Shown in pieces: positions 9,944 to 29,442 of a stretch of 35,045 nucleotides of DNA. Under the pieces are notes generated by a model. That model made no database searches and had not been told where the DNA came from. It was given only the letters and a program-made list of their open reading frames with translations. The translations under genes and the position numbers were made by a program. Source of the DNA: an uncultured Candidatus Poseidoniales archaeon (GTDB lineage Archaea; Thermoplasmatota; Poseidoniia; Poseidoniales; Poseidoniaceae); NCBI GenBank assembly GCA_905182725.1, contig CAJJCQ010000068.1, positions 1 through 35,045 on the forward strand, read 5' to 3'. The stretch's first letter is position 1; every line of letters begins with the position of its first letter.

Positions 9944-9977
9944 GATTGTGCGAAGTGTTTCACCTTCAAGAAGACCT

Positions 9978-9988
9978 GCATTGATGTG
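9978..9988 (+). promoter_or_regulatory. GCATTGATGTG motif, copy A
   Basis: An 11-base word found four times in this window, only in intergenic DNA. This copy lies in the 89-base divergent gap, 44 bases before the GTG start at 10033. The function is unknown; a regulatory or promoter-proximal element is inferred. Confidence 0.45.
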
Positions 9989-10021
9989 ATTTGAAGCGAT
10001 GGCATCAAAAAGCAGCGCTGA

Positions 10022-10027
10022 GGGGAG
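10022..10027 (+). promoter_or_regulatory. Ribosome-binding site that fixes a GTG start
   Basis: GGGGAG lies five bases before GTG 10033 and supports it over the in-frame TTG at 9991, which has no ribosome-binding sequence. Confidence 0.55.
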
Positions 10028-10032
10028 AGTTT

Positions 10033-10776
10033 GTGAATACTGTTCAACGCAGGCGCCTAGCGATTCTTCTCATGGTTGGTTCGACTTGCTTGTGGCTTAT
10101 TGCAGGATATATAACTTGGATTTGGAACGGTTGTAAAGCCTACATGCCATTTATTTCTGATTTTGATTTGTATGAACCTGGCGACACGATTTTTACAGTT
10201 GGCACCTTTGTTAGTGGATTTCTTGTATTTTGGATCATCATGGAGATTCACTCAATGAATATGAAACGTATCAGCGAGGGTGGCCACCATTCAATTTGGC
10301 ACGGTTTGAACCACCTCGCTGTGTTCCCAGGCTTAATTGGGGCTTTTTCATGTATCCGTATTGGTTCAGTTCCATGGGATGTCGACGGTCCAATGCATGG
10401 GCATTATGCCCTTGACATCTTCAAGAACGGCGTCTATTGGTGTTTGATTGTCTCAGCGATTACAATCCGAATTTGGTGGGGTCATGAACGTTTTCGAGTG
10501 GTACTTGGGCTACGTGTTTTCGCAGCAGCAGCAGCCTTTGTTGGTTTGGTCAAAATGTTATCAACCCAAGCCAAAGTTTGGGGTCCTGATTTTGATTGGG
10601 ATTCGTATAATACGACGACCTCGGATATGCTTACCTTTTGCACCAGTACGAACTACCCACTTCTCAATGTAGCTGCAGTCTGGGAATACGTACTTGTGTT
10701 TGGAATTCTAGGGACAATTTTATCATTTTTACCTGAAGTAATCTTTGATGATTTGTCGAATGATGAAGAGGAATAA
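10033..10776 (+). CDS. Multi-pass membrane protein, possibly Frag1/DRAM/Sfk1-like
   Basis: The product has 247 residues and about six hydrophobic segments, including LAILLMVGSTCLWLIAGYIT near the N terminus, FVSGFLVFWIIMEI, FPGLIGAFSCIRIG, YWCLIVSAITIRIW and a last helix near YVLVFGILGTILSFLP. The first loop, with FISDFDLYEPGDTIFTVGTF, and the HGHYALDIFKNGVYW segment recall the Frag1/DRAM/Sfk1 fold (ISD...P...IFT in loop 1). That resemblance is by eye and weak, so function is not assigned. A GTG start at 10033 with GGGGAG upstream is preferred; TTG 9991 is the longer alternative. It is the first of a rightward run with two further genes of unknown function. The C terminus is acidic (SNDEEE). 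Confidence 0.72.
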   Translation: MNTVQRRRLAILLMVGSTCLWLIAGYITWIWNGCKAYMPFISDFDLYEPGDTIFTVGTFVSGFLVFWIIMEIHSMNMKRISEGGHHSIWHGLNHLAVFPGLIGAFSCIRIGSVPWDVDGPMHGHYALDIFKNGVYWCLIVSAITIRIWWGHERFRVVLGLRVFAAAAAFVGLVKMLSTQAKVWGPDFDWDSYNTTTSDMLTFCTSTNYPLLNVAAVWEYVLVFGILGTILSFLPEVIFDDLSNDEEE

Positions 10777-10798
10777 AGTAAACACACATCTTTGGCGA

Positions 10799-10809
10799 GC
10801 ATTGATGTG
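10799..10809 (+). promoter_or_regulatory. GCATTGATGTG motif, copy B
   Basis: Same 11-mer as copy A, 22 bases before ATG 10832. CACATC at 10785-10790 can pair with GATGTG at 10804-10809, giving a 6-bp stem with a 13-base loop. Confidence 0.45.
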
Positions 10810-10831
10810 CTCTACATGCTTTGGCTAAGAC

Positions 10832-11170
10832 ATGAGTCGAAGGAAGCCAGAGGTTCCAAGTCTTGCTGATGCATTAGCCAAGGACTTTGCCGAACTCAAA
10901 AAAGGTGAAGAAAATCCTCTACCATCGGAGGAAATTCCAGGGTCCCCGGAAGTTCTCGAATTGGTCGAGATTGATCCCTCTCAAAAACCGCAATATGGCC
11001 GCCCTGCACAGCATAAAGGGCAAGAAAGTAGTTTTGTTTTCACCCCCGATACACCAACCGAATCAGTCAATGGTGATGCAGAACTCATAGAAGAGGTCGA
11101 ATCACCTGTGGTAGAAATTCTTGACAAACCGAGCACTGCGCTCGGTGATGATTTTGATGTTGAATGGTAA
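10832..11170 (+). CDS. Small acidic protein of unknown function
   Basis: I do not recognise this 112-residue protein. It has no hydrophobic segment, is rich in Glu, Pro and Ser, and is probably largely disordered (for example LPSEEIPGSPEVLELVEIDP). The N terminus, MSRRKPEVPSLADALAKDF, may form one amphipathic helix. It ends DDFDVEW. It sits between two membrane-protein genes and its last seven bases overlap the next gene, so translation of the two is probably coupled. A cytoplasmic partner of the flanking membrane proteins is a guess from context only. The start has no strong ribosome-binding site. Confidence 0.62.
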   Translation: MSRRKPEVPSLADALAKDFAELKKGEENPLPSEEIPGSPEVLELVEIDPSQKPQYGRPAQHKGQESSFVFTPDTPTESVNGDAELIEEVESPVVEILDKPSTALGDDFDVEW

Positions 11171-11766
11171 GCGCTGATACAGGTCCTTATCAGTGTAAAC
11201 CTTTACCCGAAGTTATGAAAGTCACACGAAACTTCGTTCGAATTTTTATTATGATCTTCGGAACTCTTGTACTTGTATCCTATCTTTACGGCCTTTCACA
11301 CGCTTCGGATCAGGCTGCCTTGTGGGGTGGAATACCTTGGTCACAGGCCCAGTTCATTGTACCTTTCATGTTCTTGGCTGCCTTTGGATTCTTGATGTAT
11401 TGGTGGACTATTCTCTATCAGAATGATGCATCAGTAATGGAATCTCTTCGCTGGCCTTGGGGAGAATCAGATGGTGGTGGAGGCGCTCGCCTCCTGTTGG
11501 CCTTCGCCTTACTTGTCATACCTTCAGCACTGTGGCTTGAGGCGACTATTTTCCACCTTGATCACGAATACAGCTGGACTCCTCTGCTTGTTGTAGGGGT
11601 GTTGGCGCTTGCCTGTGTTGGAAATATTCTCATGGGGCTACTTGCTTATTCATCCTATGTCGATGAATCACCTGGTGGTGGGAAAATGCTTCTTGGATCA
11701 ATTCTCCTTGGAATCCAATGCATCATATTTGACGGAATTTATTGGAATCTTAAATTCCCTTGGTGA
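11164..11766 (+). CDS. Five-helix membrane protein of unknown function
   Basis: The 200-residue product has five predicted transmembrane helices: around residues 20-44 (FVRIFIMIFGTLVLVSYLYG), 55-78, 103-125, 135-160 and 178-195. The long hydrophilic segment between helices 2 and 3 contains a glycine-rich ESDGGGGAR. No catalytic motif or known family is apparent. The ATG lies inside the 3' end of the previous gene, overlapping by seven bases, which points to translational coupling. With the gene at 10033 it brackets the small acidic protein, and the three probably form one transcript that may read into thrS. Confidence 0.7.
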   Translation: MVSADTGPYQCKPLPEVMKVTRNFVRIFIMIFGTLVLVSYLYGLSHASDQAALWGGIPWSQAQFIVPFMFLAAFGFLMYWWTILYQNDASVMESLRWPWGESDGGGGARLLLAFALLVIPSALWLEATIFHLDHEYSWTPLLVVGVLALACVGNILMGLLAYSSYVDESPGGGKMLLGSILLGIQCIIFDGIYWNLKFPW

Positions 11767-11827
11767 CGAAGTAATAATTGTACTTGTATGGCTATTTTCT
11801 TGCCATATCGAGGGAGGGTTTGATGAA

Positions 11828-11851
11828 GGGTTGACAACCCCGTAGGGGTTG
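11828..11851 (+). promoter_or_regulatory. Two mutually exclusive hairpins before the thrS ribosome-binding site
   Basis: CAACCCC at 11835-11841 can pair with GGGGTTG at 11845-11851 (7 bp, 3-base loop). Its part AACCC (11836-11840) can instead pair with GGGTT at 11828-11832 (5 bp, 3-base loop). Only one stem can form at a time. The downstream stem ends at the base just before AAGGAGAG (11852-11859), the thrS Shine-Dalgarno. Control of ThrRS translation by switching pairing is inferred. Confidence 0.5.
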
Positions 11852-11865
11852 AAGGAGAGAGCAAA

Positions 11866-13893
11866 ATGGCACTCATCAACGTTACCCTACCTGATGGAAA
11901 TGTGAATGAATATGCCACAGGCATCACCTGTGCAGAAGTCATTACCGATGCATTAGGCCGTAAACATGGGTGCTTAGCAGCCCGAATCGACGGTGTAGAA
12001 TGTGATTTGTCCCGAGTGCTTGACGCAGATTGTTCGATTGTAGGGATTCTTTCAGACTCAGATGAAGGATTACACGTCCTTCGCCACAGTGCAGCACATT
12101 TGCTTGCTCAAGCCGTCATGTCTCTCTATCCCAATGCAAAACCAACGATAGGTCCAGCGGTTGACCGAGGTTTTTACTATGATTTTGCGATGGAACAAAT
12201 TGTCGAATCTGATCTCAAAGCAATTCAAAAGAAGATGCAAGAGTTAGCTCGGAAAAACTTCACGGTTGAACGAGTTGAATTAACCGATGAAGAATTACAA
12301 GACCATTTTGCTGATAACCCCTACAAACTTGAAATTATCAACGATAAAATCGAAGACGGTAGCGGCTCAACGATTTACAAACAGGATGATTGGTATGATT
12401 TATGTCTTGGACCTCACGTTCCAAACACCTCTCGATTGATGAATGTTAAACTCACTAGCATCTCTTCAGCGTATTGGAGAGGCGACCAAGATCGTGAACA
12501 ACTCGTTCGAATTTACGGCATTGTAGAAGCGAGTAAAGAAGCCCTTCGTGCCACACTCGATCGTCTTGAGCAAGCCAAAAAGCGAGACCACCGAAAGCTC
12601 GGAAAAGATTTACAGTTATTCCATATCGATGAAGAAGTCGGCCAAGGATTGATTCTTTGGACACCTCGGGGCTCAATTATCCGTCAAGAATTACAAGATT
12701 TCATTTCGTTCCATTTACGGCGTCAAGGCTATTCGCAAGTCTTCACCCCTCATGTTGGAAAACTCGATTTGTACCGTACTTCAGGTCATTTCCCTTATTA
12801 TCAAGATTCTCAATACCCGCCACTTGTCGAACGTGAGTTGATGAACAAACTCGCTGATGAAGGTTGCACCTGTGGAGAACTCTCGAATTTGATGAAGAGT
12901 GGAGATATTGACGGTTACATGCTCAAGCCAATGAATTGCCCACATCACATCAAACTCTATGCATCACAAATGCGTTCTTATCGTGACTTACCTCTTCGTT
13001 TGGCAGAGTTTGGTACTGTATACCGGTGGGAGCAATCTGGCGAGATTTCTGGAATGACTCGCGTTCGAGGCTTTACACAAGATGACGCTCACTTATTTGT
13101 GACTGAAGAACAAATCGCTGAAGAAGTCCTCGGGTGTATTGAACTGGTACAAATTATATTCGAAAAACTCGGAATGGATGATTATCGAGTACGGGTTGGC
13201 CTACGTGATTTAGATTCCGACAAATATGTTGGAGAACCTGAACGCTGGGATAAAGCTGAGGACGCATGCCGTGCAGCAGCCGAGTCACTCGGAGTCAATT
13301 GGTCGGAAGAGCAAGGAGAGGCAGCATTTTACGGTCCAAAGATTGATTTTGTTGTGAAAGATGTGATCGGACGTGAATGGCAACTTGGTACAGTTCAAGT
13401 TGATTACAACTTGCCAGAACGCTTTGAATTGGAATACAAAGGAAGCGATGGTGAGATTCACAGGCCAGTTATGATTCACAGAGCGCCGTTTGGTTCAATG
13501 GAACGGTTCTGTGGAGTGCTGATCGAACATTTTGCTGGTAAATTCCCGACATGGTTAACACCAACTCACTGCCATATCATTACGATATCCGAAAAACATA
13601 CAGCCTATGCCGACGAAGTCGCACAGTTACTTCGTGACAATGAAATCCGTGTGGAAATCGATAATGGCGATGATACGATTGGAAAGAAAATCCGAACTCA
13701 TCGCAAGATGCAACCAGCCTACATGGTTATTCTTGGCGATGGAGAGATTGAAACTCGAACAGTGAGTTTACGTGCCCGAAACGGTGATCAAGTGAGTGGA
13801 ATTCCACTTGAAACATTTTTGAAGGATTTGAGAACTGAAATAGACGAAAAAACAGTTCAACCGTCTTTAGCGGTTTCACCAAACGAGGATTGA
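11866..13893 (+). CDS. thrS: Threonyl-tRNA synthetase, bacterial architecture
   Basis: ThrRS charges tRNA-Thr with threonine. The 675-residue protein has an N-terminal TGS domain (residues 1-62, INVTLPDGNVNEY). A second editing domain carries HSAAH (His74, His78) and a CLGPH motif (Cys180, His184), the zinc-like hydrolytic site that removes mischarged serine. The class II catalytic core follows: MNCPHH, motif 2 (YRWEQSGEISGMTRVRGFTQDDAH), and motif 3 with IHRAPFGSMERF. An anticodon-binding domain is at the C terminus. This TGS plus HxxxH editing layout is the bacterial/eukaryotic type; many euryarchaea instead use a D-aminoacyl-deacylase-like editing domain. The start is supported by AAGGAGAG six bases upstream. 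It is followed 9 bases later by a membrane-protein gene. Confidence 0.97.
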   Translation: MALINVTLPDGNVNEYATGITCAEVITDALGRKHGCLAARIDGVECDLSRVLDADCSIVGILSDSDEGLHVLRHSAAHLLAQAVMSLYPNAKPTIGPAVDRGFYYDFAMEQIVESDLKAIQKKMQELARKNFTVERVELTDEELQDHFADNPYKLEIINDKIEDGSGSTIYKQDDWYDLCLGPHVPNTSRLMNVKLTSISSAYWRGDQDREQLVRIYGIVEASKEALRATLDRLEQAKKRDHRKLGKDLQLFHIDEEVGQGLILWTPRGSIIRQELQDFISFHLRRQGYSQVFTPHVGKLDLYRTSGHFPYYQDSQYPPLVERELMNKLADEGCTCGELSNLMKSGDIDGYMLKPMNCPHHIKLYASQMRSYRDLPLRLAEFGTVYRWEQSGEISGMTRVRGFTQDDAHLFVTEEQIAEEVLGCIELVQIIFEKLGMDDYRVRVGLRDLDSDKYVGEPERWDKAEDACRAAAESLGVNWSEEQGEAAFYGPKIDFVVKDVIGREWQLGTVQVDYNLPERFELEYKGSDGEIHRPVMIHRAPFGSMERFCGVLIEHFAGKFPTWLTPTHCHIITISEKHTAYADEVAQLLRDNEIRVEIDNGDDTIGKKIRTHRKMQPAYMVILGDGEIETRTVSLRARNGDQVSGIPLETFLKDLRTEIDEKTVQPSLAVSPNED

Positions 13894-13902
13894 GGGATTT
13901 CG

Positions 13903-16455
13903 ATGACAGGGCCACCTATTATTAGCGGATTCACCTTTGCTGCTTTGGTGCCTTATGTTTTGGCTGCTGCAACCGCTTGGTTATTTTGGACCCGCGTCGT
14001 TCCTCATCAATTACGTGGTTTACAAGTCGCTTTTGAAACAGGCGAGAAGCGATATGAAGTTCACGAAGTAACCTCTTCTACTCAAGATGCTCGTGATTTA
14101 CTCCGATCAAGAGGAATGCAACCCGGTGTTGCAACCTATATCTTCGCTTTAGTTGGGGCTCTGCTGCTGTTTTTTGAATATGTGATGATTCGGTTAGGAC
14201 TTTCAGATGGTTATCATACACCTTCATTGAGCGTGGCATTGATTTTCATTGCTCTTCCTGCTTTAATCTCAATGGGAACTTCGCTCGGAGCCCAGGTGAT
14301 TAAGCCGATTGGTCAAAGCCGAACATCTTTGCAAAATTTGAATTTTTGGCGAAGTTTAAAATACGTACTACTGGTCTTAATGTGGATTAGTTTAGTCTTT
14401 GGACTTTATCTCTTTTTAGAGAGTCAAGGCGTTCCTCTTTCACGGCGATTTAGTATTTGCACATTTGTGTTCATGTCTCCATCGATTCTTGCCTACGGCC
14501 GTATTCTTGGTTCATCATGGCAAGCTCTTCGACAGTCTTCCCGAAAAATTGCTCGAGGAGAGCCTTCTCCGTTTCACAACCATATTCCAAATGCAAGACA
14601 ACAGGCCGTAGCCCAACTCGTTAATCTCAACTTGATTGTAATGCCATATATTGCTTTGAATACGCTTGTTTCGCTCCTCGTTTTGTTATATGATCCAAAC
14701 CTACTGGCGCATTCGAACCGAGTACTCCAATTACCTGAATACACACTTCAAACAACATTTATGGAAGAAGGCGGAATTCTTGGTTTTGGACTCATTGAAT
14801 TATTCTCATTCATTCCAGTGGCAGGAATACGAGAACCTCTTGTTGAATTTGTATTACTGTTTTTGTTACTGAACGTCGCCCTTATTGGTTTCCTCTTCGT
14901 CTATGAAGTTGCTCGAATTCTCTTCCTCGATGTTCAAGATGTATCTGGCAAAGGTGGAATCAAATTAGCAGACAGTCGTCTTTTGAGGGCTGAACCAAGT
15001 CAACAGGCTAAAGTTCTCAATTTCTGTTTTACCGGATTTGCTGGCCAATCGATGCTTTTGTTGGCATTAGGTATGATCACTTTTTGGGATTCGACCGCAC
15101 TCCCTCAAGGCGCTAATTGTGGTGAATGGGAGGACAAAGTCTGTGGAGTTTTAGAAAAAAATGCTCTTGAAGAACTCACATGGATGCTCGCTTCAGGTGG
15201 TCAAATTGCTTTTCTCACCATCTGGCTCAAGTCACGCCGCATCGGGTTGGAATTAGAAGACATTACTTTCGATACTACAGTTGGAGGAGACCGTGCTCGT
15301 CTTTCAGAAATGCAAGATGTCATCTACCTCAAACAAAAACCCTTCACCGATTTGATTGCAAACGACCAATGGTCAAAAGCCCTCGATCGTCTCGACAAGA
15401 TTTATGAAGGTCATGGGAAGCAATTAGAGGGACTTACTTTAGCACGTAAAACCGACGCAATGATGGAATTGTATGCTGGTTTAGGGCGTTGGAACGAGGC
15501 TGAGCATGAAGCAGTCTCTCTCCTTGCTTTACGAGGTGGTCGTGAAGCACAAGTCGCTCGTTTGGTGCTCTCTGCATCCAGTTTATCTCAACGAGATTAT
15601 GCAGAAGCAAAGCCTCGTCTAGGATTGTTAATTTCTGATGATATTGAAACAGCTCGATTACAATGGGCAGCATCATTGTTCAATCCTAAACAACGAGTAT
15701 TAGAGCCTGAATTCAAAGCCCTCATTTCGATTGACTCGGTAATGAAACGTAACATTGACCTTGTTCAACGTTACAAAAAGGGTATTGCTCAAAGTGAATT
15801 GAAATACCTTGATACACCTCCAGGGCGAATCTTCTTGCTGAGTGATATTGCTCGAATGCGTTTAGGTGGTACACCTGACAAAGCATTGAACTTGCTTGAA
15901 CGGTTCATTAAGAACTTTGAAATAACAAATTGGACGCATGGAGAAGTTGTTCGGGCCCTACTCCATATCGATGCAGGGAGAATCAATACGGGCGTGACAC
16001 TGGCTGAAAAACTTGCAGCATCAAACCCCCGCCATCCTCACGTTCGAAATCTCATTGGAGCCCTTTCCCGTGCAGGTCATACCGAGATGCTTCCATCAGA
16101 AACAACGCCGATAGAATGGCTTAATGATTCAGGTCTTGATTGGTTTGATGGATGGACGATGAAACACGTCGTTGCCCCACCACCTAGCTTTGCTAGAAAA
16201 CCGTTAATTCAACATGCATGGAATTCTAATGGGTGGACTGCATTCAATGGGTCTGGTAGTCTCGCTGAAGCAATTAAGAAAAAGTCGAACGGTTGGAAAG
16301 TAGTTCAGCAAGTCTGGCCAGATGAATTACCAATGTGCATTCACACACACTTAACGGGAATCGTCGTTACCATTTCAGGAATGCCCGTTGACCTTGGATT
16401 CCCTGGTACACTTGACCTCAAATCCATTGAAAAGAAAGGCTTGCTCGATATTTGA
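13903..16455 (+). CDS. Large polytopic membrane protein with C-terminal helical-repeat domain
   Basis: This 850-residue protein is not recognised. Residues 1-445 contain about nine hydrophobic segments (for example FAALVPYVLAAATAWLFW near the start, YIFALVGALLLFFEYVMI, YVLLVLMWISLVFGLYLFL, LVEFVLLFLLLNVALIGFLF). Residues about 450-740 are soluble and made of helix pairs with TPR-like character (WSKALDRLDKIYEGHG; GRWNEAEHEAVSLLALRGG; TPDKALNLLERFIKNF). The last 100 residues look like a separate globular domain rich in Trp. A scaffold or sensor that displays a repeat domain on the cytoplasmic face is the natural guess. GAGGGA precedes the ATG, and the gene begins 9 bases after thrS. It converges with another membrane/helical gene, leaving only two bases between stops. 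Confidence 0.8.
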   Translation: MTGPPIISGFTFAALVPYVLAAATAWLFWTRVVPHQLRGLQVAFETGEKRYEVHEVTSSTQDARDLLRSRGMQPGVATYIFALVGALLLFFEYVMIRLGLSDGYHTPSLSVALIFIALPALISMGTSLGAQVIKPIGQSRTSLQNLNFWRSLKYVLLVLMWISLVFGLYLFLESQGVPLSRRFSICTFVFMSPSILAYGRILGSSWQALRQSSRKIARGEPSPFHNHIPNARQQAVAQLVNLNLIVMPYIALNTLVSLLVLLYDPNLLAHSNRVLQLPEYTLQTTFMEEGGILGFGLIELFSFIPVAGIREPLVEFVLLFLLLNVALIGFLFVYEVARILFLDVQDVSGKGGIKLADSRLLRAEPSQQAKVLNFCFTGFAGQSMLLLALGMITFWDSTALPQGANCGEWEDKVCGVLEKNALEELTWMLASGGQIAFLTIWLKSRRIGLELEDITFDTTVGGDRARLSEMQDVIYLKQKPFTDLIANDQWSKALDRLDKIYEGHGKQLEGLTLARKTDAMMELYAGLGRWNEAEHEAVSLLALRGGREAQVARLVLSASSLSQRDYAEAKPRLGLLISDDIETARLQWAASLFNPKQRVLEPEFKALISIDSVMKRNIDLVQRYKKGIAQSELKYLDTPPGRIFLLSDIARMRLGGTPDKALNLLERFIKNFEITNWTHGEVVRALLHIDAGRINTGVTLAEKLAASNPRHPHVRNLIGALSRAGHTEMLPSETTPIEWLNDSGLDWFDGWTMKHVVAPPPSFARKPLIQHAWNSNGWTAFNGSGSLAEAIKKKSNGWKVVQQVWPDELPMCIHTHLTGIVVTISGMPVDLGFPGTLDLKSIEKKGLLDI

Positions 16456-16457
16456 AG

Positions 16458-18242
16458 TTATATTTTTCTTCGAAGACGTTCCATTGAAGTATCAGCTTCA
16501 GATAAGTGGTTGAGACAATCTTCAACACGCCCACCTGACAAAGATTCGCCAGCAAGAGCGATGGCTTGTTCGCATGCACGACGGTTTTCATCTTCAATAG
16601 AAATACCATTTGCGTCGCATTGATTGCGAAGGATTTTCCATTCTTCTGTTACAAAATCATACAGTTCAAGTGCTTCATCACTTGCTTGGCCTTCGTTATC
16701 AAGATCGGTAGTCATGGTATCTAACAAGGCATTTGCAGATGTCCATTGTTTGAGTTCTGCAGCATCTTCAATCGAAGCGAGGCGGTTATCCCAATCTTTT
16801 TTGTCATCTCTCTCCTTGTATTGGGCAACTAATTTTTTACGCTGTTTGAGGGCTCGACGAACATTATCCATGGCTTCTCGTTCTGCTTCGATTGAACGTA
16901 CGACACCATCGGCTAATCCAATGGCTTGACTTGGACTACCTGCTTCAATGGCTTGTCCAGCACGATCTAATCGTTGCACCATCTCGGTTGTATCAAGGCC
17001 GTCGGTTTGTTGTAACTGGTGTTGCGCTTCTTTAACGGCATCAATAGCTCGTTCTTGTGCATCCCCATCTGCCAATAATTGAGGAGGAATCACGCATGCA
17101 AACTCATAGGCTTCTTGTGGCTCTTCGCTTGCCAACTTCTTCTTAGCATCAGTAAGTAATTCTTTCAAATGCTGAACACTTTCAGCATCATTGCCACCGA
17201 GTAATCGGCTGGCCTCAGTAATGGCTTGTTCTGCCATTGACCACCATTCAATAATTTCAAGTGCCAATTTCTTCGCTTGGCGAAACAATATTTCTCCTTC
17301 TCGCAATGAACCAAGTTTTACTTCCCGTACGCCTATTTCAAAAGATTTCCGAGGACGTTTTGCTGAAGGTGCAATCGATTCTGCCTTTTCTATCGCTTGG
17401 ATAGCATCTGCTTGGATAATTTCAACGTCTCCAGTGAGTGAAAGTGTACGCTCAATGTCATCTTGTGCTTCATCCAGAAGTTTCATGCCATATTCTGGAT
17501 TGATGTGCCCTTCTTCTTTTGCCGTCATTACTAAACTCGAAGCCTGATCGACCGCTGCACCTTGTGCTTTCAATTCTAATAAATGCGTTTCAACTCCGTC
17601 GAGTCGTCGAGCGAATGCTTTCCGTTCGACACGCTGGTCATCTCCAACGAACCAAATATATCCAGTTGCGATGCTGGCAGCACCAAGTGAACTGAGCGAA
17701 GCAAGCCATTCATAGGAATTTGTTTCAGGGACATCGCCAATAAAGAGTGAAAAGGCAGCTACGGCGCCAAGTCCAGTCATAATTGCTCGCCACCTCATGA
17801 CATCAAGTCCACCACGTAAGATTGAACTTGAGGTTTGAAAGCAAGCATAGGCGACCAGAATGATGAACCCTGATCCGAGAAGAGAAGCATACTCCTCAGG
17901 ATTGAGGTGCTTCGAAGCGAGAATCAAGAATACAGGCCAAGCAATTGAAGCAAATGACCCAATTCTTGTTCTTGCTTTTGCATCATCGAGAACAGAATCT
18001 TGAAGAATTAGCCCATAAGCGATAATGAGGAGAGGATAACCAAGGCCTTCAAATAATCCAGAATCACCTTTTACGGCTGATTGAAGGCTCGGCCACATCA
18101 GCCAAACCGCACCAGTGAGTACGAGTAATGCCGAACTACTGGTCAGGCGATCAAGTCGTTGCTGTCTTGATTTCCTTGCAGCAGTAATTGCCGCATCAAC
18201 ATCTGCCCAAGCATCGAGAGCCATAGTACATCTTGATGACAT
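16458..18242 (-). CDS. Membrane protein with long helical cytoplasmic tail, unknown
   Basis: The 594-residue product has about six hydrophobic segments between residues 36 and 200 (for example ALLVLTGAVWLMW, LGYPLLIIAYGLILQ, GSGFIILVAYACF, IMTGLGAVAAFSLFI). They are followed by nearly 400 residues of charged helices (LDEAQDDIERTLSL, AIDAVKEAQHQLQQTDG, LDRAGQAIEAGSPSQAIGLAD) ending SMERLRRKI. The helices come in short pairs resembling TPR- or HEPN-like hairpins rather than one long coil. No enzyme motif is visible. Start choice is uncertain: ATG 18242 is taken, with ATG 18224 and a start near 18317 in the same frame. It has the same overall plan (membrane half plus helical half) as its convergent neighbour, which suggests they act together. 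It is divergent from pyrB. Confidence 0.75.
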   Translation of the reverse strand: MSSRCTMALDAWADVDAAITAARKSRQQRLDRLTSSSALLVLTGAVWLMWPSLQSAVKGDSGLFEGLGYPLLIIAYGLILQDSVLDDAKARTRIGSFASIAWPVFLILASKHLNPEEYASLLGSGFIILVAYACFQTSSSILRGGLDVMRWRAIMTGLGAVAAFSLFIGDVPETNSYEWLASLSSLGAASIATGYIWFVGDDQRVERKAFARRLDGVETHLLELKAQGAAVDQASSLVMTAKEEGHINPEYGMKLLDEAQDDIERTLSLTGDVEIIQADAIQAIEKAESIAPSAKRPRKSFEIGVREVKLGSLREGEILFRQAKKLALEIIEWWSMAEQAITEASRLLGGNDAESVQHLKELLTDAKKKLASEEPQEAYEFACVIPPQLLADGDAQERAIDAVKEAQHQLQQTDGLDTTEMVQRLDRAGQAIEAGSPSQAIGLADGVVRSIEAEREAMDNVRRALKQRKKLVAQYKERDDKKDWDNRLASIEDAAELKQWTSANALLDTMTTDLDNEGQASDEALELYDFVTEEWKILRNQCDANGISIEDENRRACEQAIALAGESLSGGRVEDCLNHLSEADTSMERLRRKI

Positions 18243-21470: not shown

Positions 21471-21478
21471 GTGATCCC

Positions 21479-24400
21479 ATGTTTAATCTGCCAGATGGAA
21501 ACCCAATCGAAGAAGAAATAAAGGTCGGAGACGGCATAATCCAGCCGTTTGACAATGGCGTGATTAGCACGTGGATTGGCCGACGGAAAACCCCTGCTGG
21601 ACATCGCCTCGTCCGTGCTGGACGAATTATCGGCTGGCTTTCTGAATCAGAGAAAGGCAAGACACTCTTGGGTGGAAAAGAGGCTCGTCAAAGACTTGAA
21701 GAAATCGAATCTAAAGATTCGTGCAGATTTACCGCAGGTTCCTATTCTCTTGCCGGGCTTGGAAGTGTTGCAGAAGTTGTTCCCGAAGCCTTTGAATTTA
21801 CAGCCGATCGTCAAGGCTTGTTACCTCGAGGCGATGCACTTCAACGTTTGATGAGTCGAGATCTTTCCGCAGTTTTGCGTGTGCTGATGGAGCAAGACAC
21901 CGTTCGCGGCGGTATCGTGGTTGACCAGGGAATGCTGATTGATTCGGTTGGTGAATTACCGGCTGACCCCGACAGTCTTTCAGCTCAAATCCACACAACA
22001 CTTTCCGACATGCGAATGGAAGGTTTGAATGCTGGACTCGGACTCAATGGTTCGAGTCATTGGACTCTTCACACGAATGACGGATCTCTTCTTCTTGCAG
22101 AATCAGGTGATATTTCAATCGGCGTCTGGACTGAAGCCAATACCAACCATGCTCGCCTTATTTCTGCGGCATCCGGCCTTCTCGATGGAGAGATGGGCTC
22201 AGTTGGAGTACGAGGTGGCCCTCTTCCCGAAGGTTTTGTTTTGAGAGAAGGACGAGGTGGCCCAGATGCAATTCTTTCAATGCTAACTGCCGCTGTGAAA
22301 GAAGAAGTTACCGGCTATTTGCAAGCGGGTCAATCTGCTCAGGCAGTATCTGTTCTTTTGTCACGAGGTATTCCAGTCGGTATCTCAGCATCAGAAGACG
22401 ATTCTTTGGAAGAGGCAATGCTCAAATTTACCGATTCAAAATGGGTTTTGAAACTGCATCGTCTACCTGTTGGAAGTATTATTTCTCGTGATTCGGGGAC
22501 AATTGATACCTTCAGCCTCGATATGTTCCATGAATTATTGGTGGTTCTCCGGACCCGTTCAGAAAGCCGAAAAGCAAACCTCAAAATCAAACTGAACGAT
22601 TTGTTTGGTTTTGAAATCGGCATGGACGTGCTTCGAACCAGCAGAGCATCCGTTAAATTCGCTGAAACTATTGAAGAAGTGAGTGACGGTATTGGTGGAG
22701 AGGCTGCACAATATTTAGCTGTCGATTCAGGCCTTCGTAGGCGCTTAGAAGCAGCCGATCATCGTATTGATGATTTGGAGAAAGAGAAGGCAGTACTCGC
22801 CGGTCGTCTTGATGAATCACATTCTGCAAAGAATGCTGCACAGATTGTAGCCAGAGAGGCCAGTGAATCTCGGATGGAATCGATTACGAAAATCGAAAAG
22901 AACAATTCAACTCTCGATAAGATGCAACTGGACCTCGCAGAATCACGCGCCACGAGTGAGCAAGCGGAAAACCGAGCCGAACGATTGGTTAAGCGTGTCA
23001 ATGAACTTGAACATCAAGTAAGTGTTCGAGCTGCTGAACTTGCCAAAGCACTTGGCGATGCGACCTCGAGTGAAGTATTACGTTCTGCCATTGAAGAATT
23101 GGCTTTGAAAGAATCCCAATTAAATGCAGACTTGGCAGTAGGAAGTGATCGATTATCAACTATACGCCAACAAGCAGATGATGACGAGCGTCGATTACGC
23201 GTTCTGCAAGAACAAGTAGAAGCCACTCGTGAACGCCACACTCGAGTTCAGGCAGAATCGATGCTTTTAGAAGAGAAAATACATTCCCATACTTCTGAAT
23301 TAGAGTCCATCGATGCCGAAGCAAAAGCATCACGCCGACGCTCTGAAGAAGATCGTACTCGACTTGCTTCGGATGAGGCACGTCAAGCACAAGTTCATGC
23401 TGAACTTCGTGAATTAATGACTGAACGCCGACAAACATTGCGTGAACTCGGAGATTTAGGTGCACGACGTGGTCATGCTGAGGCAGAATTAGTTTCACTT
23501 GTTGAACGGGCAGAAGCACTTTCGCAAGCTCATGAAGAAGCCTTGTCGGATATTCAAGAAGCAGAACGGCTCCGTGCTCGTTTGGCTGAAGAGCCACTGG
23601 CTCAGGCCCTACTCGATGATGCTTCGACTTTCGAGGGTCTCGGTCCTGTCCTTGAACGACTTGAAAATGCGCGAGTACTTGGATACTCAGTCACTCTTCT
23701 TGACCGCGCAGTTGAACGTGGATTGCAAGTGATTCAAACAACAGTAGACCATGTTGCTGCAACCCCTCGGCATCTTCTTTCGAGTGAAGTTATGACATTA
23801 CTTGAACGCCAGGTTCCTCAAACTGCAGGTGCAGTTCGAGGTCTTGCTCGATGGTCTGTTCAACAAAGGTTAGAGCATCAACTTGGTGAAACAGTCGGTC
23901 ATGTCGTTATTGATTTAGAGCACCTCTTGGAAGACTTCGACCGTTCGATCACGATGCTTCGCCGTCTTCGTAATGTGCTGGAGCAACTTGTTCGACTTGG
24001 CGCCCCTCATCAAGATGTTGAAGCACTCCTCAATAATTGCTCACGACCAGAAGCACTCCCAAGTATCGCAAAAGCCACTCGAAAGCTGATTCAAGTTGCA
24101 CTTGATGACATTTATCTCGAAGCTGACCAACGTGATGCTGGTGAAGCAATTGCTCTCGAAGAAACAGCTCGTGTTCTTGAAGAGTTGATCACTCAACTCG
24201 ATGCTTCTGGCCTAGCGGATGGAGTTCCACGAGGGATGCTTTGGGAATTCCAACGTGATGGATTGTTACCTTATGAGCGAAACTCTGTACCGGATGCTCA
24301 ACGTACACCAGTTGAAGAAGAAATGCTCCTTGATATGGAATCAAGCCTTGTTGGACCGGTCCCAGTATCATTAGATACAGTAAAGGAAGAACCAACAATC

Positions 24401-24655
24401 GATGATGCAGGATGGGAAAGTATGCCGGTTCCTGTGGATGAAGCAATGCTCAATGAAACCATGACATCTTCTGAACCTCTTTCCTCAAAGGTGGTTGTAT
24501 CCTCTGTTGACCAAAGCGATGAGCGTGCACAGCTGGAAGCAGAATTAGCACGTTTAGATGCATCTTGGAACCATCGACAAGAACCTGCTGTAGATTCAGC
24601 AGTTGATCCTGCTTTAGCAGCACTTGAAGCCCGACTCTCTGGTCTTGATTTCTGA
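21479..24655 (+). CDS. Large Roadblock-like plus coiled-coil protein
   Basis: The product has 1,058 residues and is not matched to a named family. Residues about 1-110 are an unknown globular domain (TWIGRRKTPAGHRLVRAGRI). Residues about 127-236 resemble a Roadblock/LC7 domain (LSAVLRVLMEQDTVRGGIVV, then helix, then strands with DGSLLLAESGDISIGVW). After a further mixed region, about residues 420-705 form a long, SMC-like coiled coil rich in Glu, Arg and Ala. The C-terminal part is helical (HLLEDFDRSITMLRRLRNVLEQL) and ends in a low-complexity linker and a short helix, LAALEARLSGLDF. There is no ATP-binding motif, so it is not an SMC ATPase. ATG 21479 is used; GTG 21467, overlapping the previous stop as GTGA, is equally possible. 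It is probably a cytoskeletal or scaffold element. Confidence 0.8.
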   Translation: MFNLPDGNPIEEEIKVGDGIIQPFDNGVISTWIGRRKTPAGHRLVRAGRIIGWLSESEKGKTLLGGKEARQRLEEIESKDSCRFTAGSYSLAGLGSVAEVVPEAFEFTADRQGLLPRGDALQRLMSRDLSAVLRVLMEQDTVRGGIVVDQGMLIDSVGELPADPDSLSAQIHTTLSDMRMEGLNAGLGLNGSSHWTLHTNDGSLLLAESGDISIGVWTEANTNHARLISAASGLLDGEMGSVGVRGGPLPEGFVLREGRGGPDAILSMLTAAVKEEVTGYLQAGQSAQAVSVLLSRGIPVGISASEDDSLEEAMLKFTDSKWVLKLHRLPVGSIISRDSGTIDTFSLDMFHELLVVLRTRSESRKANLKIKLNDLFGFEIGMDVLRTSRASVKFAETIEEVSDGIGGEAAQYLAVDSGLRRRLEAADHRIDDLEKEKAVLAGRLDESHSAKNAAQIVAREASESRMESITKIEKNNSTLDKMQLDLAESRATSEQAENRAERLVKRVNELEHQVSVRAAELAKALGDATSSEVLRSAIEELALKESQLNADLAVGSDRLSTIRQQADDDERRLRVLQEQVEATRERHTRVQAESMLLEEKIHSHTSELESIDAEAKASRRRSEEDRTRLASDEARQAQVHAELRELMTERRQTLRELGDLGARRGHAEAELVSLVERAEALSQAHEEALSDIQEAERLRARLAEEPLAQALLDDASTFEGLGPVLERLENARVLGYSVTLLDRAVERGLQVIQTTVDHVAATPRHLLSSEVMTLLERQVPQTAGAVRGLARWSVQQRLEHQLGETVGHVVIDLEHLLEDFDRSITMLRRLRNVLEQLVRLGAPHQDVEALLNNCSRPEALPSIAKATRKLIQVALDDIYLEADQRDAGEAIALEETARVLEELITQLDASGLADGVPRGMLWEFQRDGLLPYERNSVPDAQRTPVEEEMLLDMESSLVGPVPVSLDTVKEEPTIDDAGWESMPVPVDEAMLNETMTSSEPLSSKVVVSSVDQSDERAQLEAELARLDASWNHRQEPAVDSAVDPALAALEARLSGLDF

Positions 24656-24665
24656 GGTGAACCCC

Positions 24666-24911
24666 ATGTCATCTGAAACGAACACTCTTCTTTCACGCAA
24701 AGAAACACCTGGGCGAAGATACCCACTGTTTGTTGAACGACTTCTTTTGATTTTGGTTGTGATTGGTTCAATCGTTCTTCATCCAAAAGTTCTCGAAATG
24801 GTTGATGGAGTATTCGGTACTGTCGTAGCTTGGTGTGGATTGCCACTCTTTTTGTTACTGTGTGCAGAATTATCAGGACGAATTGTCCAAGCACTCCATT
24901 CAGATTCGTAA
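24666..24911 (+). CDS. Small two-helix membrane protein
   Basis: The 81-residue protein has two hydrophobic helices, LLLILVVIGSIVLH at about 25-38 and VVAWCGLPLFLLLCAEL at about 53-69, with a charged N terminus (MSSETNTLLSRKETPGRR). GAGGTGA before the ATG supports this start. It lies 10 bases after the coiled-coil gene, so it is probably the third member of the Roadblock transcript and might anchor that complex to the membrane; this is inferred from position. Its stop directly abuts the stop of the convergent gene. Confidence 0.7.
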   Translation: MSSETNTLLSRKETPGRRYPLFVERLLLILVVIGSIVLHPKVLEMVDGVFGTVVAWCGLPLFLLLCAELSGRIVQALHSDS

Positions 24912-26126
24912 TCAAATCTCTACGACTTCTTTACTTTGTGAAGTAGCATCTTGTGCCCTTCGAGCATAAATCAATCCCCATATACGTTCCCAGGGAACAA
25001 AGAATCTGAGCAATGCCATGATACTCAAGAACATCGCTGCGGAAATAACTAATCCGTATGTCAGTGATAATTCGATGGATTCAGAAACTTGACCCGCCCA
25101 TTGACTGCCCGTGGAATCTTTGACAATGTCCAAGAGAACACTATGGAATCCGAGTGCTACCATGGTTGCAATACCAGTTAATCCAAGGAATCCGAAAGTG
25201 TGCTTGAGGTGGGTGTTGAGAACATTGTCCATCTGTCGAACATATTCAGGGTCTCGCTTACATGATTCAGGAAGACGGTATGCATATTCCAAATAACGGA
25301 TCACACCGTAGGAAGATTCTTGGAATACCATGATGAGAATGGCAATCATGATCAGAGCGAATTGCTCCTTAGTAACGAGCATCAAGCCAAAAATGCCAAT
25401 TGTCGGTTCACTGAATTGTGCCCCAATAACGCTGACAGAGTCCCCATAGTTTCCAAGTTGACCGTTGATTAACGGGAATGCTAGTATTGCATGAATACCA
25501 AGGAACAACAATGTGAATCCAATAGCCCAAGCGATGGAACGACGGGAAAGACCCCATATTCCTCGAACACCCATAATGACAGGTAAGAGGTAAAGGAAGA
25601 GAATCATCAAAGATAAAATCATCAACAAAGGCCACTCAAGTGTGCTGAGTTCAGCGGAGTTTGGTAATCGTAAATCAAAACTGAATAACATCCCAGTGAG
25701 CCATGAAAGCAAAAGTTGACCGACTAATACGACAATCATTGTGATGATGAAACCTAACTTCACCCGTTGCTGAACGGTCGGTGTTTGGAATGCTAAGAGA
25801 GCCATTCCTCCACCAAGTGCCAATCCAAGAACCAATGGAACAAAGAAACGAGCCAAACCAGTTCGTCCTTCACCGGTGAGCCAATCTCCAATTGGTAATT
25901 GATCACCAATGAGGATTTCAATAGTATCGAAAAGCATTGTGTGGTCGATTGAGCCGACAACATACGTCGATACGATTTCGAGATACATTCCAATCAATGC
26001 CACAGTTGCAATAACCTGCAGAGTGATAATTTGCCATTGTTTTCGGAGCATCTTTAGATGCAATGTACGAGGGTGAATGCTTCCACTCAGGGTAACATCA
26101 CCTTGTAGTCCAACATCTTCAGCCAT
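24912..26126 (-). CDS. Polytopic membrane protein in DUF58 operon
   Basis: The 404-residue protein has about nine transmembrane segments (for example IITLQVIATVALIGMYLEIV, FFVPLVLGLALGGGMALLAF, LLMILSLMILFLYLLPVIM, AIGFTLLFLGIHAILAFPLI, IMIAILIMVFQESSYGVI). A charged loop precedes the last pair (YRLPESCKRDPEYVRQMDNV). It has no known motif. The start is supported by GAGGGG inside the 3' end of the DUF58 gene, and only one base separates the two genes, so it is the last gene of the DUF4350-DUF58 transcript. In related loci membrane proteins accompany DUF58 and DUF4350, so a shared envelope role is inferred. Confidence 0.75.
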   Translation of the reverse strand: MAEDVGLQGDVTLSGSIHPRTLHLKMLRKQWQIITLQVIATVALIGMYLEIVSTYVVGSIDHTMLFDTIEILIGDQLPIGDWLTGEGRTGLARFFVPLVLGLALGGGMALLAFQTPTVQQRVKLGFIITMIVVLVGQLLLSWLTGMLFSFDLRLPNSAELSTLEWPLLMILSLMILFLYLLPVIMGVRGIWGLSRRSIAWAIGFTLLFLGIHAILAFPLINGQLGNYGDSVSVIGAQFSEPTIGIFGLMLVTKEQFALIMIAILIMVFQESSYGVIRYLEYAYRLPESCKRDPEYVRQMDNVLNTHLKHTFGFLGLTGIATMVALGFHSVLLDIVKDSTGSQWAGQVSESIELSLTYGLVISAAMFLSIMALLRFFVPWERIWGLIYARRAQDATSQSKEVVEI

Positions 26127-26127
26127 C

Positions 26128-27381
26128 TTAGTACCCCCTCACTTGCATCAATGCTTGCGACAAATCCATGTCAGGCATCCAATCAATGACCATTGCACCA
26201 GAGCCGGCTAATGTTGTTAATCGGTTTTGGCGTTCAAGTTTGAGAACTTCATAGGACATTCGAGGAATACGACTTACAAGTCGTTCAAAGTCAATACTCG
26301 ACGGTGAGAGAACAGTTACTTCGTGTCCACGGCCAACCAGGTCTCGTACGGCTGCAGGTACCGTTCCATCTCCTTCACAAGATGATATGATGAACACGGG
26401 ACTCCCTCTACTAAAGCGACCACTGAGTGAATTAGTTACAGCTTGCAATGGCATTTTTCCTTTTGGAGATACACCAGCAAGCGCACTGAGGATTTTGAAA
26501 TACTGTTTGTCACCTGTATCTGGCGGTAGGTACGAAAGACTGTCATCAAATATGGCCAAAGCAACAGAATCCCGACGCTTGAGGAAGAATGCAGCAAGGC
26601 TCGCTGCTGAGACAGTACCCATTTCAAGTGGATTTTTGAGTACCGTTCCAATACGTGCTATGTCACGACTGTCTAAGAGAATGTACAAATCAGTTACCGC
26701 ATCACGGCATTTCTCATTCACCATCAATTCACCAGTTCGAGCATATGCTTTCCAATTAATGTTCTTGAACGGATCACCGGGGACATATTCTCGTAGAGAG
26801 TAAAACTCTGAACCTTGTCCTGGTGTTCGCAAAGTTGTCGCACCGGTATACATCTTGGGAGTTCGAGAGCGGAGGAATGCTTCCTCAACCTCTTTGATTT
26901 GCGGGAAAATCACGATGTCGCTGTGATGATCGACATACATTTCCTCGACACCGAGGTTGAATGTGTTTCGAGAGCGAAGAGAAACCGGACCTATGGAATA
27001 ATGTCCTCTCAATGGGCATCGGAGAACATACCGAATCCGTGCACTTTCACCCGGGCGTAAATTCAAACGCATTTGATTCAATCCACTACGTAGTTTCATC
27101 TCGTGAGGAATATTATCGTATACTTCCAAGAGTTGGGTATTTCGATTTGAACGGTTTGTGACCAAGAGTTCAACATACAAATCATCACCCTTGTAGAGAT
27201 TATCTGCTGAAAGGGTTCGTTGAACTTCAACATCACCGTGACCAGAGATCCAAGAATTAACGACAATAAATGCAATGAAGGAAATTCCAAGAATCATCAT
27301 TTGCAGATTTGCAATCATCATACCGATGAGAATCAGCGCAATACCGCCGGTGAATGTGAATGAAGCCTTTCGTGTCCACAT
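26128..27381 (-). CDS. DUF58-domain membrane protein
   Basis: The 417-residue protein starts with two membrane helices (residues about 8-45), followed by an extracytoplasmic beta-rich domain (VEVQRTLSADNLYKGDDLYVELLVTN). It then has the DUF58 signature REYVPGDPFKNINWKAYARTGELMVNE and a von Willebrand A-like fold with a metal-site-like DSRDIAR. Family knowledge: DUF58 proteins are encoded with MoxR AAA ATPases and vWA proteins, and are thought to help assemble or activate envelope complexes. No moxR is visible in this window. The ATG is preceded by GAGGTGA, which overlaps the stop codon region of the upstream DUF4350 gene, a sign of coupled translation. Confidence 0.88.
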   Translation of the reverse strand: MWTRKASFTFTGGIALILIGMMIANLQMMILGISFIAFIVVNSWISGHGDVEVQRTLSADNLYKGDDLYVELLVTNRSNRNTQLLEVYDNIPHEMKLRSGLNQMRLNLRPGESARIRYVLRCPLRGHYSIGPVSLRSRNTFNLGVEEMYVDHHSDIVIFPQIKEVEEAFLRSRTPKMYTGATTLRTPGQGSEFYSLREYVPGDPFKNINWKAYARTGELMVNEKCRDAVTDLYILLDSRDIARIGTVLKNPLEMGTVSAASLAAFFLKRRDSVALAIFDDSLSYLPPDTGDKQYFKILSALAGVSPKGKMPLQAVTNSLSGRFSRGSPVFIISSCEGDGTVPAAVRDLVGRGHEVTVLSPSSIDFERLVSRIPRMSYEVLKLERQNRLTTLAGSGAMVIDWMPDMDLSQALMQVRGY

Positions 27382-27390
27382 AGTCTCACC

Positions 27391-29025
27391 TCAGATGCGT
27401 CCCCACGCTTTGATTCGTTTGACGACTGCCACCGTCTGTTCAAGTGAATATTTCGTCGGCTCAATAGCGAACTTTGCTAATACGGGGTCGTTGATGAGTG
27501 ATACTAACTCTCGAGCAGGCATAGCATGGAACTCTTCACGGCTCAAGCCATTTTGATTTCGAACCTTGGAGAGGAATACTTGACGAATCTTATCCGTTTT
27601 TGCATAATATGTATACCGGTTCGCATCTCCGAATCCATAGTAAATGATACTAAACACGTGACGCCAAGGTTCAGGGTCTCTTTTCTTGATAAGAACTGCT
27701 TCAAAGGCAATAAAGAGGACGAGGAAGAGCAACATCATTGCTAATCCTTCACCTGTGAAATAGACCAAAAGGAAGTATACTGTGTTGTATGAATCTGCCA
27801 ATAAGGCATTTTGTGGGTGACGTGATTCATCAAAAATCACCATGGCGTTTTCTGCAGGTTGCCCTTCTTCGCCAATATCCGTTGACATCAGTGCTTCAGC
27901 AATGAAGTCCATTGCCCACTTTCGATTGTCATTTGCAGGTATACATTTTTCGTTTTTTGAGGAGCAATCATTCTCCCCATACAATGGGTCGTTTGGATCG
28001 TTGAAACCTTCATAGTCGTAAATGGCATTGATGAGAGCAGAACCGTCTGCCATGAACACAATACGACCGCCATCATCCGGGTCGCAGGATTTCCGTGCAC
28101 ATGCTTCGATACTCAAATTAAATTGGCCCCACAAATCTGGTGTTTCCGAATTCTGTTCATTTCCAACCCAAATCTCTCCATCGCCATTGACATCGACGGT
28201 TGCTTCATTACTGGTCACAGCTCGAATTGAAACTTCAGAAAGAGCACCACTTACGCCAGGGATCAGTTCCAAGGCCGTGATATTGTTGAGCAGTAGTTGG
28301 TAGGTTGCGTTGTATTGAATCTCTCCATTCATCCAGTGTTGAGTGCATAAGCCAGCATCTTCCAGAGGCATAGTTTGACCGTCTAAGAAACTGCAGGGAT
28401 GTGCCCCTTCGCCGTTCATTCCACTCCAGCGGTCATGGACTGAGAGGGTTGCAGGGTCGATACTGCTTCCGTTCATTCCGCAGGGTGTTGCTTGCATACA
28501 CATCCAGATATAGTTGTAATCAAGTTCTTCCACATAGGTTGTATCGTAGAGTTGGTAACCAGTATATCGCACGCCATAGGCTTGGGCAATACTTCCTGCA
28601 AATCCATAATCGTCAAGAATAAGCGCAGTACCCCCTGCATCAACAAATTCAACGATAGCATCAATTTCAGAAGGAGAATAACCGTCCTCTGCTGCAATAG
28701 TGATGAATCCATCATTATCGAATTGAGGAAGAGAAAGTGTATCGCGTTCTACGCCAGCAAGAATGTAAGTCGTATTGCGTGGGTCTTCGATATCTGCTAA
28801 CAAGAGGGGGCTGCTCACTAGTGAACTGGTTTTGATGCCCATGTCCTTGATGTCTTGTCGAAATGCTGACATGTCATTCCAATCATCATCGTAAGCCGAC
28901 AATTGATTGGTGTTGGAGAGATTGACAAAATTGAGCAAAATACTCGTTAGCAAAAGGAACATGACCAGCCAGAATGCGGCTTGGAGGCCGATTCGTCTGT
29001 AATTGCGATTTGCGTTGTCGAGCAT
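27391..29025 (-). CDS. DUF4350-like membrane protein with cysteine-rich ectodomain
   Basis: The 544-residue protein has one N-terminal helix (14-33) and another at about 414-443, with a large domain between them that likely faces outside. The early part resembles the DUF4350 glutamine-amidotransferase-like fold (EIDAIVEFVDAGGTALILDDYG), and the family-type motif VIFDESRHPQ precedes the second helix. Eight cysteines in the ectodomain (176, 181, 211, 227, 309, 314, 354, 361) fall in near pairs and could form four disulfides. TVDVNGDGEIWVG (277-288) looks like a calcium-binding EF-hand-type loop. DUF4350 genes typically accompany DUF58, as here. GGTGA precedes the start. It leads the three-gene operon and has a dyad operator candidate upstream. 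Confidence 0.8.
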   Translation of the reverse strand: MLDNANRNYRRIGLQAAFWLVMFLLLTSILLNFVNLSNTNQLSAYDDDWNDMSAFRQDIKDMGIKTSSLVSSPLLLADIEDPRNTTYILAGVERDTLSLPQFDNDGFITIAAEDGYSPSEIDAIVEFVDAGGTALILDDYGFAGSIAQAYGVRYTGYQLYDTTYVEELDYNYIWMCMQATPCGMNGSSIDPATLSVHDRWSGMNGEGAHPCSFLDGQTMPLEDAGLCTQHWMNGEIQYNATYQLLLNNITALELIPGVSGALSEVSIRAVTSNEATVDVNGDGEIWVGNEQNSETPDLWGQFNLSIEACARKSCDPDDGGRIVFMADGSALINAIYDYEGFNDPNDPLYGENDCSSKNEKCIPANDNRKWAMDFIAEALMSTDIGEEGQPAENAMVIFDESRHPQNALLADSYNTVYFLLVYFTGEGLAMMLLFLVLFIAFEAVLIKKRDPEPWRHVFSIIYYGFGDANRYTYYAKTDKIRQVFLSKVRNQNGLSREEFHAMPARELVSLINDPVLAKFAIEPTKYSLEQTVAVVKRIKAWGRI

Positions 29026-29111
29026 GAGGTCACCTTCTAGAGCACTGTTCCGACATACCCACGAGTTCCATTCGGTTTAGAAGGTTGTTATTTGATGGAA
29101 GGCAAATGCTC

Positions 29112-29126
29112 ATTCGTAGTACGAAT
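29112..29126. promoter_or_regulatory. Perfect 15-bp dyad upstream of the DUF4350/DUF58 operon
   Basis: ATTCGTA-G-TACGAAT is a perfect palindrome with a one-base centre, 86 bases before the ATG at 29025, with AT-rich AATATTT directly beside it on the promoter-distal side. This is typical of an operator for a dimeric regulator; the regulator is unknown. Confidence 0.55.
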
Positions 29127-29150
29127 ATTTCCATGTAAAACAATGCATTA

Positions 29151-29390
29151 TTAGCGTTTTAAATGAACTTTTGAAGCAATACGGGCAACCTCGTCAACTG
29201 GAATTTCCATCAATCCGTCAATCATCTCCCAAGGAAGTGCTGACGGGTCAATATTTGCCTCGATTTTTACTCGAATCCCGGAGATTGAGCCCGATTGTTT
29301 GTCAAAGACAATATCGCGAAGTGTTCCAAGGAGTTGACTATGCGAATCAATGACTTCACGGTCCATGATTTCACGTGCAAAGACAGCCAT
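29151..29390 (-). CDS. PRC-barrel domain protein
   Basis: The 79-residue protein is a single PRC-barrel: MAVFAREIMDREVIDSHSQLLGTLRDIVFDKQSGSISGIRVKIEAN followed by a short strand pair (LMEIPVDEVARIASKVHLKR). The turn DSHSQLLGTLRDIVFD is the usual PRC-barrel hallmark. Family knowledge: small stand-alone PRC-barrel proteins in euryarchaea include cell-division factors of the CdpB kind that work with SepF and FtsZ, and others of unknown role in RNA metabolism. Which applies here is not visible. GAGGAGA precedes the ATG. It lies 71 bases downstream of cdc48 on the same strand, and that gap carries repeated motifs. Confidence 0.85.
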   Translation of the reverse strand: MAVFAREIMDREVIDSHSQLLGTLRDIVFDKQSGSISGIRVKIEANIDPSALPWEMIDGLMEIPVDEVARIASKVHLKR

Positions 29391-29418
29391 ACAATTCTCT
29401 CCTCAGTTACAGGTCAAC

Positions 29419-29442
29419 CACATCAATGCAGCACATCAATGC
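29419..29442 (-). repeat. Tandem GCATTGATGTG motif, copies C1 and C2
   Basis: On the minus strand the 11-mer occurs at 29432-29442 and again at 29419-29429, with a 13-bp period. The copies end 41 and 28 bases before the PRC-barrel ATG. The first copy extends to 13 identical bases (ending CT) with copy B at 10799. Confidence 0.55.

Follow-up and report, generated by a model that had tools for sequence, protein, structure and literature searches.

A repeated 11-base word in an archaeal contig and a candidate core promoter of Candidatus Poseidoniales with C or G in its TATA-like box

Why should one 11-base word recur upstream of several genes within a short piece of an archaeal genome? The window analyzed here spans positions 1 to 35,045 (in nucleotides [nt]) of contig CAJJCQ010000068.1 in assembly GCA_905182725.1 of an uncultured Candidatus Poseidoniales archaeon. 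It contains four exact copies of the word GCATTGATGTG, two on the forward strand (9978..9988 and 10799..10809, +) and two on the reverse strand (29419..29429 and 29432..29442, −), which precede the genes of a membrane protein, a small acidic protein and a PRC-barrel protein. A reading of the letters without database searches (the sequence-only reading) had proposed a regulatory or promoter-proximal element linking these genes. Our analysis suggests that the copies at 10799 and 29432 very probably owe their significance to an internal hexamer, TTGATG, which would be one occurrence of a core-promoter box used generally in Ca. Poseidoniales, with the consensus TTSAWR (S, C or G; W, A or T; R, A or G).

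A positioned box upstream of Poseidoniales genes

Genes were called by a simple codon-usage script in 376 kb of this genome (G000) and in pieces of ten others, and start codons were used as a proxy for RNA starts. De novo expectation maximization (EM), in which the word was not used as a seed, returned TT[C/G]A[A/T][A/G] with a start peak at −29 in G000, G003, G073 and G047, and the same core shifted by one or two columns in G037, G053 and G082; these are the seven Poseidoniales genomes referred to below. In a control window at −100..−72, EM found no comparable peak. The likelihood gain in G000 was 155.0 versus 30.8 for the best of 15 letter shuffles and 84.3 for the best of 15 random-offset sets; the corresponding values were 139.7, 34.0 and 77.2 in G003, and 49.8, 33.5 and 35.3 in G047. 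TTSAA-like words also emerged from the random-offset sets in G000 and G003, so the hexamer is common upstream in general.

Its position is nevertheless distinctive. Among 822 genes with an upstream gap of at least 45 nt (gapped genes) in the seven genomes, TTSAWR starts at −31..−27 in 139, whereas the mean counts in other bins add up to 25.9. The counts were 41/193 in G000, 41/202 in G003, 10/107 in G073, 13/95 in G047, 14/80 in G037, 7/74 in G053 and 13/71 in G082, compared with mean other-bin counts of 7.7, 7.0, 2.1, 2.6, 2.0, 2.5 and 2.0, respectively (binomial p from 6.7e-20 to 0.013). Genes with a gap shorter than 20 nt carry the hexamer in only 6 of 253 cases in four genomes (1/88, 4/84, 1/39 and 0/42). 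The canonical form TTWAWR occupies the same place in 9 of the 822 gapped genes.

The box thus has the fixed orientation and the location, about 25-30 nt upstream of the start (peak at −29 with the start-codon proxy), that are expected of an archaeal TATA box, but not its A/T-only core of the TTTAWA type. When position 3 was left free (TTNAWR at −32..−27), the seven Poseidoniales genomes gave C66, G78, A2 and T7, that is, C or G in 144 of 153 sites, whereas four outgroup genomes of the same phylum (G061 and G144 of the same class, G113, and G106; G144 n=114) gave A20, T28, C2 and G1, that is, A or T in 48 of 51. Width-scaled backgrounds were ~30 C/G and ~8 A/T sites in Poseidoniales versus 6 and 18 in the outgroups, so that C/G sites exceed background 4.7-fold and A/T sites 1.1-fold in the former, as opposed to 0.5-fold and 2.7-fold in the latter. 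In G106 alone, TTWAWR was found in 23 of 84 genes and TTSAWR in none of the 84. G061 contributed only 2 sites, and its EM motif was of the A-G...T-T-A-W type; the EM search in G113 gave no clear peak. Even in G053, with a GC content of 38%, the EM motif has C at 0.49 and G at 0.41 in position 3.

A second element lies downstream of the box. Two consecutive C/G bases (S-S) at +20 and +21 from the box start follow 53 of 67 boxes at −29 and 43 of 91 boxes at −50..−40, compared with 44 of 230 background boxes at −110..−62. Because S-S trails the box in the second group, whose genes are likely leadered, it belongs to the promoter and is not a Shine-Dalgarno motif. Where a gene has a single box and this lies at −29 (59 genes), A/T is nearly absent from positions −9 and −8, and position −1 is C in 64% and T in 32%; the outgroup promoters have S-S at −9 and −8 in 6 of 46. 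Within the genus, 84 of 92 box genes have a pyrimidine before the start codon, versus 281 of 408 genes that lack the box (p=3.6e-6), in keeping with the pyrimidine −1/purine +1 initiator of archaeal TATA promoters, although the association is not significant outside the genus. Upstream of the box, at the place of the purine-rich B recognition element (BRE), there is a weak preference for A at −10/−9 and −4, and T is depleted at −7/−6, all relative to the box start.

These features suggest a layout in which the TTSAWR box would be followed by 13 nt, a W-S-S element, 7 nt and a pyrimidine, with the RNA starting at the next base.

Upstream regions of the genes in the window

The small acidic protein gene (10832..11170, +; 112 aa, no Pfam match) fits this layout. 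The word at 10799..10809 (+), an exact match, contains the TTSAWR box as TTGATG at 10802..10807 (+), its first T at −30 of ATG 10832; the W-S-S element is TGG at 10822..10824 (+), −10..−8 of the same ATG; and C stands at −1. By this pattern the gene is predicted to be leaderless, its RNA starting at ATG 10832 itself. Among its orthologs, for which 15 loci were searched and 14 starts found, TTGATG begins at −30 in 11 and at −29 in 3, amid variable surrounding sequence; in L069, whose start was missed, TTGATG is present too by eye.

The PRC-barrel gene (29151..29390, −; 79 aa, Pfam PF05239), whose protein is 96% identical to proteins in Candidatus Poseidoniales and Poseidoniaceae metagenome-assembled genomes, has its box farther upstream. 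Here the distal word copy (29432..29442, −) contains TTGATG at 29434..29439 (−), with the first T, 29439, at −49 of ATG 29390, and a TGG W-S-S element at 29418..29420 (−) occupies +19..+21 from the box start. The pattern places the predicted transcription start at 29410 (−), a G after T at +29 from the box start. The RNA would then begin ~20 nt upstream of the ATG, leaving a short leader with a Shine-Dalgarno-like GAGGAG before ATG 29390.

The conservation of this box was followed in 34 distinct PRC upstream regions, after 9 of 43 loci had proved exact duplicates and with the f2 orthologs L063-L065 excluded for want of a located start. With only the first T of the hexamer fixed in the search, GACGC-N-hexamer was found in 32 of the 34, as TTGATG in 19, TTGAAG in 7, TTCAAG in 4 and TTCATG in 2. 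Only positions 3 (C or G) and 5 (A or T) vary, and W-S-S follows the box in 21 of the 32 promoters. The two regions without a box (L057 and L058) have lost the spacer, the PRC gene lying close behind the upstream gene. GACGC directly before the box is not a general flank of such boxes and may be a gene-specific site.

The second PRC copy (29419..29429, −) is a 13-bp tandem duplicate of the distal copy and lies over the downstream element; TTGATG recurs at that spacing in only 4 of 32 PRC promoters, and the last bases of the copy overlap the TGG kept in close relatives.

The copy at 9978..9988 (+) lies at −55 of GTG 10033, the start of a Frag1/DRAM/Sfk1-like membrane protein gene (10033..10776, +). 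This GTG is backed by ortholog starts, and on that condition the spacing of 22-44 bases between word and start codon given by the sequence-only reading is correct. The copy is kept in 2 of 15 loci, and we judged it incidental; as a promoter of the membrane-protein gene it was rejected, being missing in 13 of 15. A likelier promoter box for this gene is the box-like ATCAAA at 10004..10009 (+), at −29 of GTG 10033. In a search that imposed S, A, W and R, [A/C]T[C/G]AA[A/G] lies at −29 to −31 of the membrane-protein start in 14 of 15 loci, and in the 15th (L074) the start was mislocated.

Elsewhere in the window, boxes occur as TTCAAA at 4330..4335 (+), −31 of ATG 4361, and as TTCAAG at 31837..31842 (+), −29 of ATG 31866; TTGAAG lies at 9964..9969 (−), −26 of a divergent NAD-kinase-like gene (ATG 9943). 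The 9-base relative of the word that had been pointed out at pyrG, TTGATGTGC, occupies −9 to −1 of ATG 7114, too near that start codon to serve as its promoter box.

The 11-base word as a unit

The repeat itself is real: all four copies lie between called genes and are oriented toward the downstream gene, and those at 10799 and 29432 do agree over 13 bases. The argument from chance made for it was overstated, because the word had been selected from among all words; among 60 dinucleotide shuffles of the window, 6 contain an 11-mer with at least four copies, as do 6 of 14 further real 35-kb pieces taken from this genome and its relative G003. Moreover, the tandem duplication leaves only three independent sites. 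One piece of G003 (C1:1-35045) has many 11-mers with 4 to 9 copies, perhaps a repeat array. In the whole genome (1.66 Mb, 81% complete) there are 6 exact copies, of which the two not in the window are on contig C45, each within a gene and antisense to it. With one mismatch allowed, we counted 74 matches genome-wide versus ~64 scaled from the shuffle mean of the window (1.36 per 35 kb), and 10 for the reversed word as a control; among this genome and 58 relatives, 48 of the 59 have at least one exact copy. The 11-mer is thus near background genome-wide, and the evidence for function lies in position and ortholog conservation. Could the word then be nonfunctional and repeated by chance? For the 11-mer as a unit this holds, and for the 9978 copy it probably does; 9978 and 29419 are both poorly conserved. 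As an account of all that is seen we regard it as very unlikely: TTGATG at 10802 and TTSAWG at 29434-29439 are held in place across orthologs and match a positional motif found independently genome-wide, which disfavors chance for these two copies.

A binding site for a regulator common to the membrane-protein, acidic-protein and PRC-barrel genes would account for the 13-base agreement, for the TGTGC that is kept after the box at both genes in many close relatives, and for the GACGC that precedes the PRC box in 32 of 34 regions. It appears unlikely all the same, since the exact word is near background with its extra copies antisense in genes, the flanks vary among acidic-gene orthologs and in distant PRC orthologs, and 9978 is kept at 2 of 15 loci; a regulon operator was rejected, as the full word is not enriched upstream of several genes genome-wide. 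A translational signal, either a small upstream open reading frame (ORF) that begins with the ATG of TTGATG or a ribosome-binding element, seems scarcely credible. The distance from the inner ATG to the acidic-gene ATG is nearly constant, at 27 nt in 11 of 14 orthologs and 26 nt in the other 3, but this very difference shifts the frame, which meets a stop in some orthologs and reads through into the gene in others. In addition, 13 of 32 PRC boxes are TTGAAG, TTCAAG or TTCATG, 11 of which have no ATG there, and operon-internal genes lack the box (6/253). An upstream ORF or leader peptide was therefore rejected, its frame not being conserved and its ATG being lost in 11 of 32 PRC boxes.

The proposed promoter-proximal element accordingly holds for two of the four copies, where TTGATG (10802-10807 and 29434-29439) is conserved at the core-promoter place of the clade. 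The proposed link between the genes does not hold, given the lack of enrichment of the full 11-mer, the rarity of its GCA flank before boxes at other promoters (2/78), the absence of the 9978 copy in 13 of 15 loci and the 4/32 at 29419. Nothing at the level of the 11-mer demands a dedicated element, and the word is mostly a by-product of promoters, which accounts for only part of the agreement of the acidic-gene and PRC promoters past the hexamer.

The TATA-binding protein and comparison with known promoters

Under the core-promoter interpretation, the box would stand in for the archaeal TATA box (TTTAWR) and would have C or G where that box has its third T. Its presumed reader would be the TATA-binding protein (TBP) of the order together with transcription factor B (TFB), recruiting RNA polymerase as usual in archaea. 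Poseidoniales TBP is divergent. When 116 genomes of the phylum were searched with PF00352, E values in families f1 and f2 (24 genomes) ran from 2.4e-26 to 1.5e-23; 89 of the remaining 92 genomes scored 1.1e-28 or better, a 54%-complete one scored 3.8e-14 and two had no match. After 8 of 31 phylum loci without a single open frame bearing the repeat pattern twice were dropped, 23 rows and three of family f3 remained for alignment. Fifty columns are fixed or nearly so, with a residue shared by 15 or 16 of 16 Poseidoniales and found in at most 3 of 26 others, and repeat 2 has an insertion of ~20 to 60 residues past its first strand (G000:C105:3649-4233 [L189] and 15 others). In the TBP tree, Poseidoniales form one side of the longest branch (2.22 changes per column, support 100/100) with little internal difference. 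The insertion and the core substitutions are candidates for how the box is read.

The Poseidoniales genomes searched each have a single clear TBP and either one or two TFBs. TFB was rejected as the changed partner, as its best scores in the seven Poseidoniales genomes (85.6-88.5 bits) resemble those in three f3 genomes (86.8-89.2). These f3 genomes, G061, G134 and G144, have four TBP and six TFIIB repeat matches each, or about two TBPs and three TFBs. A very weak second TBP-like match at G000:C35:13327-13554, also seen in G028, G082, G091, G035, G036 and G037 (E 1.9e-5 to 8.6e-4; G091 to 2.3e-7), is possibly a divergent paralog or a protein of the same fold.

Did TBP and its box change together on the stem of the order, so that TTSAWR and C/G at −9/−8 replaced A/T-rich elements, giving a natural altered-specificity pair throughout an abundant order of marine archaea? 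From the sequences compared here, we consider the chances evenly balanced.

Several observations weigh against the promoter interpretation or its extension to TBP. The strict hexamer is in place for only ~17% of gapped genes, and the signal in G053 is weak (7/74 vs 2.5, p=0.013). Part of the contrast at position 3 is background, because TTSAWR outnumbers TTWAWR in the Poseidoniales background too. In four genomes outside the genus, the pyrimidine at −1 is not significantly associated with the box (36/47 vs 179/273, p=0.18). Box genes have fewer Shine-Dalgarno motifs, the expected direction, but not significantly so either within the genus (15/92 vs 91/408, p=0.26) or outside it (3/47 vs 42/273, p=0.12). 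Finally, the side chains that we take, in yeast numbering, to face the DNA (two Asn, four Phe and the Val, Leu and Thr pairs) are all kept in Poseidoniales TBP, and they were rejected as the cause of the box change.

Among the open-access papers searched, we found none on promoters or TBP of Poseidoniales/Marine Group II. If the interpretation is right, it would provide a promoter rule for one of the major uncultured lineages of the ocean, making starts, operons and host-specific viral promoters predictable from metagenomes. It would also describe a natural TATA box whose core accepts or favors C/G, beside a strongly altered yet internally conserved TBP, and the evolution of TBP specificity would become directly testable in vitro.

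The proposed promoter shares with the archaeal TATA/BRE promoter (TBP and TFB) its place (roughly −29 to −24 relative to the inferred RNA start), its orientation, the T-T-.-A-W-R frame, the pyrimidine/purine at the start and a genome with one TBP plus TFBs; it differs in having C or G, not T, at position 3 and S-S at −9/−8. A precedent for TBP changes that shift the preferred box is the yeast altered-specificity TBP, of which a mutant reportedly reads TGTAAA. The yeast-mutant route is not indicated here, because the positions we take to be responsible, 194, 203 and 205, are I, V and L in Poseidoniales TBP, as in wild-type yeast. Promoter consensus sequences differ among archaeal groups, and in the haloarchaeon Haloferax volcanii, transcripts are reported to be mostly leaderless with a TATA box 'TTWT', a BRE 'CGAAA' and a −10 'WW' (PMC4983044). 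The leaderless architecture would be common to both groups; in contrast, the haloarchaeal promoter has an all-W box core and W at −10, where Poseidoniales have C/G in both places.

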